This document shows, piece by piece, positions 9,039 to 16,845 of a stretch of 64,000 nucleotides of DNA. Made by a program: the position numbers and the translations under genes. The notes under the pieces were generated by a model. That model was not told where the DNA came from and ran no database searches. It was given only the letters and a program-made list of their open reading frames with translations. Positions within the stretch are counted from its first letter, which is position 1; each line of letters begins with the position of its first letter. The stretch is from Tepidiforma sp. (GTDB taxonomy: Bacteria; Chloroflexota; Dehalococcoidia; Tepidiformales; Tepidiformaceae), in the NCBI RefSeq assembly GCF_026003995.1, contig NZ_BPIG01000001.1, positions 1 through 64,000 of the forward strand, in the 5' to 3' direction.

Positions 9039-10261
9039 CAGGCGCCCCTCACCTTCGCCTCGAGCAGCCCGAGCAGCTCCTCCCGCAGCGCGCCGTCCGG
9101 CACCCGGCTGACGACCTCCTCGAGGAAAGCCCAGACGAGCATCGCCTCGGCCGCCGGCCGCGGGATGCCGCGCGTCTGCAGGTAGAACAGCTGCTCTTCG
9201 TCCACCGGGCCGGCCGTGGCGCCGTGCGAGGCGCGGATGACGTTGCTGGTCAGGATTTCGAGCACCGGGTCGCTGTCGGCCCGCGCCGTCTTGCTCAGCA
9301 GCAGGTTCCGGTTCTCCTGGTTCGCGTCGGCGTTCTTCGCCCCGAGCCCGACGCGCGTCAGCCCGTAGTAGACCGACCGGGCAGAATCGCGCAGCGCCGC
9401 CTTGTAGAGCAGGTCGCTCCGCGTATCGGGGCCGATGTGGTCCTGCAGCGTGTAGAAGTCGACGTACTCCTCGCCGCGGCCGTACGCCAGCCCGAGCAGC
9501 TCCGAGCTCGCTGTCCCCCGGCCGACGAGCGACGACTCCAGCTGACCCTTGCACCACCCGCCCGCTCAGCACGAGCTGGAGGTTCTGGAAGGCGGCATCC
9601 CGCTCCGCCCCCAGCATCCGCTGGTACCCAAACGACCGCGTCGCCGGCCCCCAGCGATGCACAACGTAGTAGCGAACCTCGGAGCCCGGCCCCGGGAAAG
9701 ATTTCGGCCGACCGGCACCGCGAGGATCTCCGCCTCGTCCGAGCTGTACTCCTCGACCACCGTCACCCGGCTGTTCGCGACCCGTCACGATGACCGTGTG
9801 CGGCGTCGTCGAGCTGCGCGCCGCTCGACCGACCGCCGGATGCGCACCGGCGACGCCGGCTCGGCGTTCGCCGGCACATCGACGATGACCGCTTCCCGCA
9901 AAAACGCGTAGTGCAGCGCGGTGAACCGGTCCGTCCCCGCCGCTACCGCCGACCCGAGCCGCTGGGCCAGCCGCTCCGCGGTCGCGCCCTCCGCGAACCC
10001 GTGCGTCGTCACCGTGACGGCGTCGTCGGCCTCGACTGCAATCGATTCATCCTGTTCGACCGGGTAGCGCGCCAGGTCGATCGACCGCGCGTCGTAGTAC
10101 TTCCACGGCCGCGACTGGTAGCTGTCGGGCCACTCGAGTTCATCAGCCAGCGCTGCAGCCTCGGCGCGCAGGCGGGCCAGCCAGGCGGGGTCGCCGAGCT
10201 GTTCGCCCAGCGCCCGCGCGGCCGCCGTAATTCGGACCCGTTCCTCGGTTGTTGATGTCAT
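9038..10261 (-). CDS. sufD: FeS assembly protein SufD (frameshifted in this sequence)
   Basis: Restored length is about 400 residues, as expected for SufD of the SufBC2D scaffold. The N-terminal part (MTSTTEERV..., 10261 to about 9815) and C-terminal part (to 9038, including IRASHGATAGPVDEEQLFYL, which carries the conserved SufB/SufD signature) are sound. Between about 9540 and 9830 the homologous sequence hops between frames at four or five points. Recognisable pieces are VVEEYSSDEAEILAVP and SEVRYYVVHRWGPATRSFGYQR. Clustered indels in an otherwise intact operon point to consensus errors rather than a pseudogene, but this cannot be proven here. Confidence 0.8.
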
Positions 10262-10325
10262 ACAGCTCCTCCGCCGGCACGCATCGTGCCGGGCTCGCAT
10301 TGCGGGTTCGGCGGTCGGGCCGGCC

Positions 10326-11729
10326 TCAGCCGACCGCGCCCTCCATCTGCAGCTCGATCAGCCGGTTCAGCTCCACGGCGTACTCCATCGGGAGCTCCTT
10401 CACAATCGGCTCCACGAAGCCGTTCACGATCATCTTGGCCGCCGCCTCTTCCGAAAGCCCGCGGCTCATCAGGTAGAACAGCTGGTCCTCGCCAAGCTTC
10501 GAAACGTACGCCTCGTGCTGGATGTGCACGTCCGGCGCGTCGATCTCCATCGTCGGGTACGTGTCCGAGCGCGACTCCTCATCGAGCAGCAGCGCGTCGC
10601 ACCGCACCGTCGACTTCACGTTCTCGCACCCCTCGTACACCTTCAGCAGGCCCCGGTAGCTCGTCCGGCCGCCGTCCTTGCTGAGCGACTTCGAAATGAT
10701 GGTCGACGTCGTGTTCGAGGCCGCGTGCACAATCTTGCCGCCCGCGTCCTGGTGCTGCCCCTTCCCGGCAAACGCCAGCGAGAGGATCTCGCCGTGCGCG
10801 CCCGGCTCCATCAGGTACACGCTCGGGTACTTCATCGTGAGCTTCGAGCCGAGGTTGCCGTCCACCCACTCCATTACCGCGTCCTGGTACGCCACCGCGC
10901 GCTTCGTCACCAGGTTGTACACGTTGTTCGACCAGTTCTGGATGGTCGTGTACCGCACCCGCGCGCCCCGCTTCACGATGATCTCCACCACCGCGCTGTG
11001 CAGCGAGTCGCTCCGGTAGATCGGCGCCGTGCACCCCTCGACGTAGTGCACCTGGCTCCCCTCGTCCGCGATGATCAGCGTCCGCTCGAACTGCCCCATG
11101 TTCTGGGTGTTGATGCGGAAGTACGCCTGGAGCGGAATCTCCACCTTCACGCCCTTCGGCACGTAGATGAACGAACCGCCGCTCCACACCGCGCTGTTCA
11201 GCGCCGCGTACCGGTTATCGGCCGGCGGCACCACCGTCCCGAAGTACTCCTTGAAAATATCCTCGTGCTCCTTCAGCGCCTGGTCGGTGCCGAGGAAGAT
11301 GACGCCCTGCTTCTCCAGGTCCTCGCGGATGTTGTGGTACACCACCTCGGAGTCGTACTGCGCCCCGACGCCCGCGAGGTACTTCCGCTCCGCCTCCGGA
11401 ATGCCGAGCCGGTCGAACGTCCGCCGGATGTACTCCGGCACGTCATCCCACGAGCGCTCGTCCCGGTCGGTCGCCTTCACGTAGTAGTGGATGTCGTCGA
11501 AGTTGATCTCCTTCAGCTGCGGGCTGCCCCAGGGCGGGTCCTGCTTCTGCCAGAAGATCTCGAGCGCCCGCAGCCGGAACTCGCGCATCCACTGCGGCTC
11601 GCCCTTCATGTCCGAGATGATGTTCACGATCTCCCGGCTCAGGCCCTTGTTCGCCTTGAACAGCGCCTCCTCCGGGTCGTAGAACCCCCACTTGTATTCG
11701 CCAACGATCGCTTCAGGTGCCGTCGTCAT
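10326..11729 (-). CDS. sufB: FeS assembly protein SufB
   Basis: A 467-residue SufB with intact frame. Typical segments are [23 protein letters not shown], the VEGCTAPIY loop and the C-terminal [22 protein letters not shown]. It scaffolds nascent Fe-S clusters together with SufC and SufD. It lies between sufC and sufD, the usual order, with 54- and 64-base gaps. Confidence 0.95.
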
Positions 11730-11783: not shown

Positions 11784-12536
<753 letters not shown>

Positions 12537-12557: not shown

Positions 12558-13205
12558 CTATCGCAGGTCGACGGTTTCGATGATCTGCCGCTGGCCCGGC
12601 GTCCCCCGGACCAGGTACTCACAGCAGGGCGCGCCATCCACAATCCGGTTCAGCTGCTCAACGTCGCGGCCGAGCAGCAGCTCGATCGCCTTCCGGTCCG
12701 CTTCGCAGGGCAGGTCCGAAATCTGCGCAGCAGCGTGGTACGGGCACGAGGTGTTCACCAGGTGGATGCCGTCCGGCTCCAGGCGCCACTCCTCGAGAAT
12801 CCCCTCGCGCCGCAGCACCTCGGTCACCCGCGCAACAATCTCCTCGACCGCCGCCCCGTCCGGAATCTCGTCCCGGTGGCGCGATGCGAGCGACTCGGCC
12901 ACATTCGCCAGCACCTCGGCCACAACGTCCGGGCGCTGCTCCAGCCCACGGAGCATTCGCGCCATCAGGTCGGCGTACGCCGGCGGAATCGTCCCGAACG
13001 CCTTCTCCGTCGGGAAGTAGGCGTAATAGGGCCGGCCCGTCGCCTGCTTCACGGCCCGCGCTTCCACCAGCCCATCGGCCCGCAGGTTATCGAGGTGCCG
13101 CCGCACGGCCGCCGGGCTGATGTCGAACACCTCGGCCAGCGTCTCGGCGCGGGCGCCGCGGTGCTCCACGATGTAGGCGAGGATGCGGTCGCGCGTTCCC
13201 TGCAT
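12558..13205 (-). CDS. sufR: SufR-like Fe-S-sensing transcriptional regulator
   Basis: A 215-residue regulator with an N-terminal winged helix (ILAYIVEHRGARAETLAEVFDISPAAVRRHLDNL) and a C-terminal sensor half. Four cysteines in SCPYHAAA, LPCEAD and GAPCCEY fit the cluster ligands of SufR. SufR in cyanobacteria represses suf genes and itself when carrying a cluster. Its place as first gene of the suf operon and the CAAC-N6-GTTG operator just upstream agree. The ATG at 13205 has GGAGG only one base away, too close for a normal Shine-Dalgarno, and may be leaderless. Confidence 0.88.
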   Translation of the reverse strand: MQGTRDRILAYIVEHRGARAETLAEVFDISPAAVRRHLDNLRADGLVEARAVKQATGRPYYAYFPTEKAFGTIPPAYADLMARMLRGLEQRPDVVAEVLANVAESLASRHRDEIPDGAAVEEIVARVTEVLRREGILEEWRLEPDGIHLVNTSCPYHAAAQISDLPCEADRKAIELLLGRDVEQLNRIVDGAPCCEYLVRGTPGQRQIIETVDLR

Positions 13206-13211
13206 GCCTCC

Positions 13212-13240
13212 ACGGTAGCCCACTTCCGGGACTTTCGCAA
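13212..13240 (-). promoter_or_regulatory. Candidate sufR promoter, possibly leaderless
   Basis: On the minus strand TTGCGA (13240-13235) and TACCGT (13217-13212) are separated by 17 bases. Transcription would begin at or just beside the ATG at 13205. The -35 lies inside the SufR-type palindrome, so bound repressor would block polymerase. Confidence 0.45.
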
Positions 13241-13258
13241 CTTCAATGTTGCGAAAGT
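13231..13258. promoter_or_regulatory. SufR-type operator palindrome
   Basis: ACTTTCGCAAC (13231-13241), TTCAAT spacer, GTTGCGAAAGT (13248-13258): perfect 11-bp arms. The core is CAAC-N6-GTTG, the form I recall for cyanobacterial SufR binding sites. It starts 26 bases upstream of sufR and contains the last codons and the stop of the preceding YihY-like gene. Confidence 0.75.
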
Positions 13259-14196
13259 TCCGATCCCCCCCGCCCGCTCCACGCAGCCAGCAGCTCCGGC
13301 CCCGGCAGCCGCTCAGCCCGCCGCGCCTCGCGCCGCATCCGCAGCGCCCGCCCGAACTCCGCCCCGAACAGCAGGATCGACCCGTTGACGTACATCCAGA
13401 GCAAAAACGCGAGCGCCGTCCCGAAGCCCGCATAGATGGCCGTGTCGCGCGAAAAGCTCGACTGGGCAATCACCAGGGCCACGAGGTTCTTGGCAAGCTC
13501 GAACAGCACCGTCGCAAGGGCCGCCCCCGCCAGCGCATCCCGCCACGCAGGCCGCGCCGCCGGCGTCACCCGGTACAGCACCACGAACATCGTGAAGGTG
13601 ACGACCGGCGCCAGCACCAGCCCCACAATCTCAGTCATCAGCGCACGGTCCATGGGGAACGGCGCAGCCCCGTCCACCCGCGCCACCACCACCCGCGCCA
13701 TCGCGGTCGCCGCCACCGAAAGCGCAACCAGCGCACCCACCACCATGACCAGCAGGATGTCGATCAGCTTTCCCCGCCAGAACGGCCGGCTCACCTTCGC
13801 ATGCGCCGTCGCGTTCAGCCCGTTCCGCACGGCCCCGAAAATCCCGCTCGATGCCCAGACCAGGAACACCAGGCCGAACCCCAGGCTCGCCGGGCTGAAC
13901 TGCTGCGCCCTCCGCACAATCTCCTCCACATTCGCCCGCACGTCCTCCGTCTCCCGCAGCGGAACCTGCTCGAACACCCAGTCCACGATCGCCTGCCGGT
14001 CAGCAAACAGGCCGAAGACAGAGAGCGTGATCAGCCCCAGCGGGATAATGGAGAAGATTGCGTAATACGCGATCGCCGCCGCATAGGTCGTGCAGTTGTC
14101 GTCCAGGTAGCCGCGTACCGCCGCCGCGACGACATCGACCGGCGCCCGGACCGGCCCCGGGACCGCCCTCCAAGAGCGCCCGGCGCGCGTTCTCAT
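13243..14196 (-). CDS. YihY/BrkB-family membrane protein
   Basis: A 317-residue integral membrane protein of the YihY/BrkB family. The characteristic N-terminal DNCTTYAAAIAYYAIFSIIPL and about six hydrophobic segments are present, with ALAFLLWMYVNGSILLFGAEF near the C terminus. The family was once called RNase BN; its molecular role is unclear. Its stop codon falls inside the SufR operator, so the last codons double as regulatory DNA. Same strand as the suf operon but unlikely to share its function. Confidence 0.85.
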   Translation of the reverse strand: MRTRAGRSWRAVPGPVRAPVDVVAAAVRGYLDDNCTTYAAAIAYYAIFSIIPLGLITLSVFGLFADRQAIVDWVFEQVPLRETEDVRANVEEIVRRAQQFSPASLGFGLVFLVWASSGIFGAVRNGLNATAHAKVSRPFWRGKLIDILLVMVVGALVALSVAATAMARVVVARVDGAAPFPMDRALMTEIVGLVLAPVVTFTMFVVLYRVTPAARPAWRDALAGAALATVLFELAKNLVALVIAQSSFSRDTAIYAGFGTALAFLLWMYVNGSILLFGAEFGRALRMRREARRAERLPGPELLAAWSGRGGSELSQH

Positions 14197-14200
14197 CGCC

Positions 14201-15316
14201 TCATCTTAGGCGCAGGGCCGCGCTCCCGGGAACCGCGCCAGCCGCCAGCGCCTCCAGCGCCTCCTGCCACATCGGCCCGACCCGCTCCCACCCGAACCGC
14301 CGTGCAGCCGCCCGGAACGGCTCGCGCGGCGGCAGCGGCCCCGTGAGCAGCGCCCGGAGCCGCGCCATCAGCCCCGCTTCATCCTCCCAGAGCAGGTCGT
14401 GGTGCTCCGCCGGCACCAGCTCCGGGTAGGCATACCGCCGCGGCGCACACGGAATGCACCCCGCCGCCATCGCCTCCACCATCCCAATGCCGAAGAACTC
14501 GTGCCGCGTCGTGCTCACCGCGATATCGGCCATCCGCAGCAGCCGCGCGTACTCCTCCCGCGAGGCCGCGAACCCGAAGTGCAGCAAGCGGTCGGCCAGC
14601 GTCTCGCGGATGCGCCACATCGCCGGGCTCGGGTTCTCCCCCGGCTCGCCCGCGATGATGAGCTGGAATGGCACCCCCTCCTCCGCCAGCCGCCGCACGG
14701 CCCGCTCGAACAGCTCCGGCGCCTTGTCGAACTCCCACCGGTGGTTCCACAGGAGCGTACGCGGCTCCCCGCGCTCCTCCGGGCCCTCGAGCCAGCCGAG
14801 TTCAGACCCCGACCGGCAGCACCAGGCTCTTCGCCGCGATCGCGGCGATCCCCTCCGCCGTGAGCCAGTTGTTCGGCTCCCGCTCAAGCTGCCGGAACGC
14901 CCCCAGCAGGTCCGCCCGGTGGAACTCCGAATTGAACGCCGCCGCATCGGCCGCCAGCGCGCTCCGGTAGTTGATCTGCCCGAACCACGAGTTGAACTTC
15001 GTCCCGCGCAGCCGCGGATAGGTCACCTGGTTCTCGTGGAAGTACACCATCGCCGGCGTCCCGCCCAGCCGCCGCCGCGTCAGTGCGAGGAACTCCGCGA
15101 GGTCGACCATATCCGTCGCAACCACCACGTCGAACGCTCCCGCCCACCCGCTCGAACTGCCGCGCCAGCTCCTCCGCGCCCCGCCGCATCCGCCGCCGCC
15201 ATCCGCCCGCCGGCAGCGCCAGCACCTCCCAGTCAAGCCGCGTGTGCTGCAGCAGCCCGGTCAGGAACGCCCGGTGGCTCCCGCCATCGAACGGCTGGAG
15301 AAACAGCCCGCCGCAT
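14201..15316 (-). CDS. tRNA-queuosine mannosyltransferase-like glycosyltransferase (frameshifted)
   Basis: Restored length is about 370 residues. The N-terminal LFLQPFDGGSHRAFL and YFHENQVTYPR segments are hallmarks of the DUF3524 domain. The C-terminal GT-B half has TRHEFFGIGMVEAMAAGC, followed by RRYAYPELVP. This combination matches the GTDC1 family, whose animal member adds mannose to queuosine in tRNA-Asp. The presence of queA in the same window fits a queuosine-related role, but the substrate is inferred. At least two indels interrupt the gene, near 15140 and at a G run near 14815. A third near 15308 is likely, because no start codon exists in frame; ATG 15316 would serve after a one-base correction. 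Confidence 0.65.
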
Positions 15317-15326
15317 CCCTCGCAAC

Positions 15327-15698
15327 CTACAGGTGGCCCAGCTCGGCCAGCCGCTGGAGCGCCGCCTCGAGTCTCCCGGTCCTCCGGGTCCACCGACCGG
15401 TACTGCGCGCACGCAGTGGCCCCCGTACTTCTCCACGAGGTACCAGTCGTCGTCGATGATGAAATCCGGCCGCGGCTCGACCCGGCGGGTCCTTGTCGAA
15501 CATCCCGTCCACCCACTCCGAAAGCCCGTGGAGGTGCACCACCCGCTCGACATGCGCCAGCCCGGCCGCGCTCCAGACGTACACCCGGTGGCCGGCCGCC
15601 TTCAGCCGCTGCATCGCCTCCCGCGCGCCCGGGCGGAGCGCGTTCGTGTGCTGGTCGATGTGCACCAGCGTCTGGTCGACATCGAAGAAGATGTTCAC
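15327..15698 (-). CDS. Small HAD-superfamily phosphatase (frameshifted)
   Basis: About 123 residues after correction. FFDVDQTLVHID is the HAD motif I (DxDxT), VYVWSAAG motif II, and PDFIIDDDWYLVEKYGG motif III/IV with its acidic pair. No cap domain fits, so it is a minimal HAD phosphatase of unknown substrate. A GTG start at 15698 with GGGAGGG upstream overlaps a TGA in another frame. However, the frame is also open into the preceding wecA-like gene, so a fusion cannot be excluded. Three indels lie near 15490, 15410 and 15370. Confidence 0.6.
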   Translation of the reverse strand: MNIFFDVDQTLVHIDQHTNALRPGAREAMQRLKAAGHRVYVWSAAGLAHVERVVHLHGLSEWVDGMFDKDPPGRAAAGFHHRRRLVPRGEVRGPLRARSTGRWTRRTGRLEAALQRLAELGHL

Positions 15699-16785
15699 CC
15701 GCGTGTCGCCCTCCCGCGGCGCCGGCGCCCGGCCCCGCCACGCCAGCATCCGCGCCGAATTCCACATCGTTCGCCCGTAGCCGAGCGCGAGCACCAGCCC
15801 GATGCCGAACGCCAGCACCCCGGCGCTCACCACCGCCGAGCCGACGCTCTTGTACCACGTGTGCGCCAGCAGCGCCGCCGCCGCAGAACACCGCCGTGAG
15901 CGCGTACACCGCCAGCGTCACCCGCACGCCCGGTGAGCCCGAGCAGCCGCTCGATCCGGTCGTGGAAGTGGTCGAAGTCGGCATGCATCGGGTTCCGCCC
16001 GTCGAGGAACCGCCGGAGGAACGCCACCGCCGTATCCAGCACCGGCAGCCCGAGCGCCACCAGCGGGATGTAGAGCGGCACCCGCCCCGTCTCGTCGAGC
16101 GCCCCCGCCACGCTCAGGCCGGCCAGGGTGAACCCGAGGAAATACGCCCCCGAATCGCCGAGGAACCGCCGCGCCTTTCCCGAGATTGAACGGGAGGAAC
16201 CCGAGGGATGCCCCGAACAGCGCCGCGAAGAGCATCGCGATGAGGTCGTGGCCGAGGTCCCACGCGATGTACGACATCGTCCCCGAGACCATCGCCGCCA
16301 TCCCGGCCGCGACCCCGTCCTGCCCGTCCACAAGGTTCACGGCATTCGTCACCAGCACGATCCACGCCACCGTCACGACCGGGTCGAGCGGCCCCAGCGC
16401 CACCGCTTCCCCGCCCGGCAGCGTCATCCGGTCGACGTGGAACCCGGAGAGGTAGAGCGCCAGCGCCGCCAGCACGTGCGTGCCGAAGCTTGAACCGCCA
16501 GTCGAGGTCGCGGAAGTCGTCCCGCGCGCCCATCGCGCAGACGATGCCGCCGCATACGCCGAGCATCAGGAACTGCCGCCGGTCCTCGCTCACGAACTCC
16601 CGCGCCTGCCCGGAAAACGCCGCCATCACGAACGGCGCCGCCACGAACCCGGCGAGGATGCTGATCCCGCCGATGCGCGGCATCAGTTCGCCTTTCCGCC
16701 CCCGCTTCGTCGGCAGGCGGAGCAGCCACGTGAGCGGCAGCGCCACCGCGAACGCAGCCAGCGCCGTGCCGACCTCAAGCCACAC
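15695..16785 (-). CDS. WecA/TagO-like polyprenyl-phosphate GlcNAc-1-phosphate transferase (frameshifted)
   Basis: A polytopic membrane enzyme of the MraY/WecA family, about 360 residues once restored. Motifs are RIGGISILAGF, MGARDDFRDL, NAVNLVDGQDGVAAG, FLGDSGAYFLGF and MHADFDHFHDRI; the last is typical of WecA/TagO rather than MraY. It would start a lipid-linked glycan by moving a sugar-phosphate from a UDP-sugar to undecaprenyl phosphate. Start is GTG 16785. Extra single bases near 16487, 16190, 15935 and 15890 shift the frame; correcting each restores continuous membrane segments. The 3-prime boundary is uncertain. Confidence 0.7.
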
Positions 16786-16845
16786 GCGTCATCACCGGCA
16801 TCTCCCGCGGCATGCTGCGCATGGTACGCCGGCGCGCCGCTGAGG

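Follow-up and report, generated by a model that had tools for sequence, protein, structure and literature searches.

A perfect SufR-type palindrome at the predicted leaderless promoter of sufR in Tepidiforma and its conservation within the family

Upstream of sufR, the gene that heads the suf cluster in the hot-spring bacterium Tepidiforma, there is a perfect palindrome. Most likely, with a probability that we put at roughly 0.8, it serves SufR, an Fe-S-cluster-sensing repressor, as its only autoregulatory operator, at a leaderless promoter. The predicted operator lies on the minus strand at 13231..13258 of the window, that is, of the whole 64,000-nt stretch of DNA analyzed here, and consists of 11-bp arms (13231-13241 and 13248-13258; ACTTTCGCAAC-N6-GTTGCGAAAGT in the minus-strand reading), a 6-nt loop and a CAAC-N6-GTTG core at 13238-13251. 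From 13258 to the sufR start, the minus strand reads, in order, ACTTTCGCAAC ATTGAA GTTGCGAAAGT CCCGGAAGTGGGC TACCGT GGAGGC ATG, with 25 nt from the end of the operator to the start of the gene. This reading bears out the first-pass annotation with respect to the arms and the core of the palindrome, its end 25 bases before sufR and its coverage of the -35 hexamer TTGCGA, which, at 13240-13235, falls within the right arm. The site, its conservation, its single-target specificity, the geometry of the promoter, the linkage to suf and the cysteine triad of SufR were all computed here.

Taken alone, the core has little meaning because the 2.84-Mb genome contains 9 bare CAAC-N6-GTTG sequences compared to 8 matches to the reversed control pattern; in the 64,000-nt window, the core has a sole match, with 0.27 expected. 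When up to 3 mismatches are tolerated, the longer pattern ACTTTNNCAACN6GTTGNNAAAGT is found at one site in the 2.84-Mb genome, at sufR, and at exactly one site per genome, each time at sufR, in all 12 family genomes (the genome of the window and 11 relatives). Furthermore, a scan of 464 kb of the genome for inverted repeats with perfect arms of at least 11 and loops of 3-10 yielded 24 perfect repeats, among which the operator palindrome is the only AT-rich one, and no AT-rich perfect palindromes appeared across six order-1 Markov genomes of equal size.

Tepidiforma belongs to the class Dehalococcoidia of the phylum Chloroflexota (PMC10284905). Searching for CAAC-N6-GTTG palindromes at the suf operons of relatives had been proposed as a check, and within the Tepidiforma family the operator is kept in 33/33 sufR loci examined, which represent 15 genera, and each of these loci heads a sufR-sufC-sufB cluster, with sufC ~650-690 nt and sufB ~1400-1500 nt downstream. 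Among the 15 genus representatives, no variation is seen in operator columns C2, T3, T4, A10, C11, T19, A25 and A26, and next to none in T5, G21 and A24. The exact core is present in all six species of the window's genus, and degenerate forms are found elsewhere in the family, where the right half is frequently GTAG or GTCG; thus, the perfect palindrome is a trait of the window's genus within a degenerate family motif. Operator scores in the family range from 12 to 18 of 18, compared to a shuffled mean of 9.3, with 2% of the shuffles reaching 12, and the maximum over the remaining 412 gene upstreams for which a score was computed, in 464 kb of the genome, is 12. Outside the family, 39 other suf-linked loci of Dehalococcoidia score 8-13, with the best scores in most of the other families of this class close to background, and in 28 loci that belong to other Chloroflexota classes, no CAAC-N6-GTTG was found within 160 nt. 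Within the family, where the operator is kept, the recognition-helix region AAVRRHLD(N/H)LRADG of SufR hardly varies; it is different in families that lack the motif. Farther afield, a suf cluster of the actinomycete Nonomuraea, which came from the plasmid search (L157), encodes a similar recognition helix, LTPAAVRRHLDALLADG, and exact CAAC-N6-GTTG is absent from the 300 nt upstream of it; two cyanobacterial plasmid matches (L158, L159) show neither CAAC-N6-GTTG nor suf linkage in the stretch read. As judged from these sequences, the operator is a trait of the Tepidiforma family, and its status as a general non-cyanobacterial suf operator is not supported. In another Chloroflexota family (f80), the SufR homologues (L130-L145) share a distinct AT-rich upstream element, approximately ATATTTATGATATTTATCTA, adjoining TTGACAA, which is possibly another operator type.

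In the window, sufR (12558..13205) is followed after 21 nt by sufC (11784..12536; TIGR01978, 349.9 bits) and then by sufB (10326..11729; TIGR01980, 707.6 bits), all on the minus strand. A tblastn search with the open frame that follows sufB in T. flava detects a sufD region (9041..10276, minus strand), the frame of which is interrupted in the assembly (76% over 412 residues at 10276-9041, with a further fragment, at 9803-9495, in a different frame). In Tepidiforma flava, sufD is one open frame, and its presence in the window as pieces in two frames fits either assembly indels or a young pseudogene. Elsewhere in the window, at 14800-16800, a glycosyltransferase gene and the genes that follow it appear to be broken up among several frames, and little coding sequence was called there, which again suggests indel errors in the assembly.

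On its upstream side, the operator overlaps a gene for a yihY-family membrane protein (13243..14196, minus strand; TIGR00765, 89.4 bits), which has its own leaderless-type promoter, TAAGAT, and the last codons and stop of which (TGA, 13245-13243) are located within the operator. With its perfect stem and 6-nt loop located at the stop codon of yihY, the palindrome could be taken for a hairpin in the yihY RNA or for a terminator of that transcript; this explanation can hardly be entertained, however, and was rejected because the palindrome has no T-run and received no call in a terminator scan, because the pairing is often not kept, and because the spacing of the operator tracks the sufR start and not the position of the yihY stop, which shifts by as much as 503 nt. 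Specifically, operator position 20 is no longer T in 8/15 genera, and seven of these eight have lost its pairing with position 9, one being compensated, so that the sequence of the half-site is better preserved than the stem. The yihY stop is within the operator in 6/6 loci of the genus and also, at other places in the site, in L007, L018 and L091; in the remaining loci, it lies 5 to 503 nt upstream of the operator. Thus, the overlap of regulatory and coding DNA that was pointed out at first is there, insofar as the stop codon is inside the operator, but it is incidental because, in other genera, the stop is found elsewhere in the site or up to 503 nt away.

The promoter of sufR has the layout TTGCGA-17-TACCGT-6-ATG on the minus strand, with the -35 element at 13235..13240, within the right half of the operator and 17 nt from the -10 element, which is of the TANNNT type and is located at 13212..13217; judging by the position of the latter, transcription is predicted to start at 13205, with the A of the ATG. 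The -10 element is the one initially proposed, but its distance from the ATG is 6 nt instead of seven. That sufR transcription is leaderless, with the start placed from the position of the promoter, is well supported by comparison of sequences. In 32/33 family sufR loci, TANNNT precedes the start codon by 5-8 nt, the exception being L019, with GATACT in its place. Genome-wide, TANNNT is near-absent close to starts except at gaps of ~6-8, where it precedes 21, 13 and 13 genes, respectively, among the 415 genes called in 464 kb with a home-made codon-score caller; these 47 genes show a weak TTG, set 17 nt from the -10 hexamer on its upstream side as in sufR, and almost no Shine-Dalgarno motif. 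In three congeners, L003, L005 and L006, the ATG is closely preceded by in-frame stops, the -10 itself making a stop, which rule out an upstream start in these loci, so that the ATG is the start. A GTG located 18 nt upstream of the ATG was considered as the start of sufR and rejected in view of the same in-frame stops. The GGAGG at 13207..13211 (minus strand), 1 nt from the ATG, is probably no working Shine-Dalgarno sequence: motifs of this kind peak at a gap of 5-10 in the 464 kb, and GGAGG is not conserved, with GGAAG, GGTGG, GGGCG and GCTCA seen in relatives. On computational grounds, then, the two original suggestions of a leaderless promoter and of a GGAGG too near the ATG to act normally both hold. 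A generic sigma-70 consensus scan called no promoter at this site, which is unsurprising for a high-GC promoter of the TANNNT type.

In total, ~11% of the called genes (47/415, in window positions 1-64000 and the following 400 kb; L105-L124) have TANNNT 6-8 nt before the start, and leaderless genes look common in Tepidiforma by this count. A published survey of TANNNT leaderless genes reports an average of 4.7% across 4 Chloroflexi genomes (PMC3160421), compared to the ~11% of leaderless-type genes in Tepidiforma, the methods being different and ours home-made. The TANNNT leaderless genes of high-GC bacteria described in that survey resemble sufR, with a Pribnow-like box ~12 bp upstream of the start and no Shine-Dalgarno sequence (PMC3160421).

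The distance between the operator end and the start codon falls into two classes across the 33 family loci, 24-27 nt in 14 and 34-37 nt in 19, with none between; the choice of the start codon moves the distance in single loci by 3 nt at most. The two classes are separated by one DNA turn. Near-class operators contain the -35, which is a poor box (for example, TTGCGA or TAGCTA), whereas far-class operators abut separate, good -35 boxes such as TTGAGT and TTGAAT. On the sufR tree, which has many weak forks, the distance classes require at least two changes on well-supported branches, so that the operator appears to have shifted, on more than one occasion, by roughly one turn of the helix. So could SufR be an activator or a dual regulator at this operator, aiding RNA polymerase at a poor -35? 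The location of the operator centre near -39.5 or -49.5, on the upstream side, also fits activation and in this respect counts against the SufR-operator reading; the poor -35 boxes of the near class and the helical phase fixed between the two classes point the same way. Nevertheless, we consider activation improbable, given that the characterised SufR proteins are suf repressors and that the far-class promoters have a good -35 of their own. A further idea, doubtful in our estimation, is that the long, family-specific operator CTTT-N2-CAAC-N6-GTNG-N2-AAAG is locked to one face of the DNA and has moved by one full turn at least twice, and that SufR exerts its effect by contacting RNA polymerase in a defined manner from upstream, instead of simply blocking the -10 and the start as in Streptomyces.

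The product of sufR is a winged-helix regulator of 215 aa, with an N-terminal winged helix-turn-helix (Pfam HTH_20, HTH_24 and HTH_DeoR above gathering) and a cysteine triad, Cys154, Cys167 and Cys195 (CX12CX27C), that is kept in 88/88 aligned homologues. The cyanobacterial four-Cys motif CX12CX13CX14C is found in none of these 88, the third cyanobacterial Cys being absent, and the match of SufR to TIGR02702, although it spans nearly the full length of the profile (E 1.3e-16), reaches 60.9 bits, below the cut-off of 178.8, which counts against the SufR-operator reading. With this score and the missing motif, we have to conclude that the protein is not a member of the cyanobacterial SufR equivalog. 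A search of solved structures returned only a weak Lrs14-like match. Elsewhere in the genome, at G000:C4:241944-243212 (L125, L128), there is a tandem pair of SufR-type winged-helix genes with CX12CXnC that is unlinked to suf, and one of these paralogues scores 74.6 bits against TIGR02702, above the suf-linked SufR. Paralogues of the SufR type that lie apart from suf and have the cysteine pattern of SufR number at least two in the genome, so that this pattern alone does not identify a suf regulator. Such paralogues could bind the site, which is another point against the SufR-operator reading, and the palindrome might accordingly be used by one of them or by some other dimeric winged-helix protein; this is very unlikely, however, considering that the operator was found only at sufR in the 12 family genomes and that a linked sufR accompanies it in 33/33 loci.

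Returning to SufR itself as the regulator, we infer binding, cluster, repression and signal from the characterised SufR proteins; in the literature, SufR represses suf by way of CAAC-N6-GTTG. By this analogy, SufR would bind as a dimer, with a cluster on Cys154/167/195, to the two CTTT-N2-CAAC half-sites, the centre of which is near -39.5, and, once bound, would cover the -35 and keep RNA polymerase off the leaderless sufR promoter. When clusters are plentiful, sufR-sufC-sufB-sufD would be kept low, and loss of or damage to the cluster would release the repression.

The first-pass annotation described this arrangement as extending a cyanobacterial regulatory logic to a non-cyanobacterial suf operon, a step that had already been made: SufR of Streptomyces avermitilis binds CAAC-N6-GTTG, as cited in PMC11995493, and M. 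tuberculosis sufR has been found by experiment to be transcribed leaderless (PMC6034842). The sufRBDCSU operon of S. avermitilis, as cited in the same paper, shares with Tepidiforma an autoregulated first suf gene and the CAAC-N6-GTTG core, but the operator there overlaps the -10 and the start site, whereas that of Tepidiforma is upstream, over the -35; the Tepidiforma family also conserves the CTTT/AAAG arms on either side, and the two operators are compared here over the core. In M. tuberculosis, which belongs to a different phylum, SufR (Rv1460) is likewise encoded by the first suf gene, with a leaderless transcript that is mapped there and predicted here, and C203, C216 and C244, each required for function, have the same X12 and X27 spacing as Cys154/167/195 of Tepidiforma (PMC6034842); a word search of that paper for CAAC, palindrome and inverted repeat retrieved no operator sequence for M. 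tuberculosis sufR. In cyanobacteria (Synechocystis), as here, CAAC-N6-GTTG forms a perfect palindrome in suf promoters, and SufR is a helix-type DNA-binding protein with a C-terminal cluster site (PMC8593673). However, cyanobacterial sufR is apart from sufBCDS, with a high-affinity and a low-affinity site between them (PMC6034842), whereas in Tepidiforma it heads the cluster, and the third Cys of the cyanobacterial CX12CX13CX14C is lacking in Tepidiforma SufR. In the C. glutamicum protein, an additional presumed ligand precedes the first Cys by four residues (PMC11995493), at a position that is not Cys in Tepidiforma.

Thus, with both main elements known from Actinobacteria, the Tepidiforma case extends a known system, and the features that are the family's own are the different position of the predicted operator and its apparent shift by one turn. 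A suf-linked SufR with a predicted operator is now documented in a family of Chloroflexota, together with computational evidence that leaderless genes may be common in Tepidiforma, and the 33 promoters make up a natural series that shows which operator bases matter and includes a jump by one helical turn.
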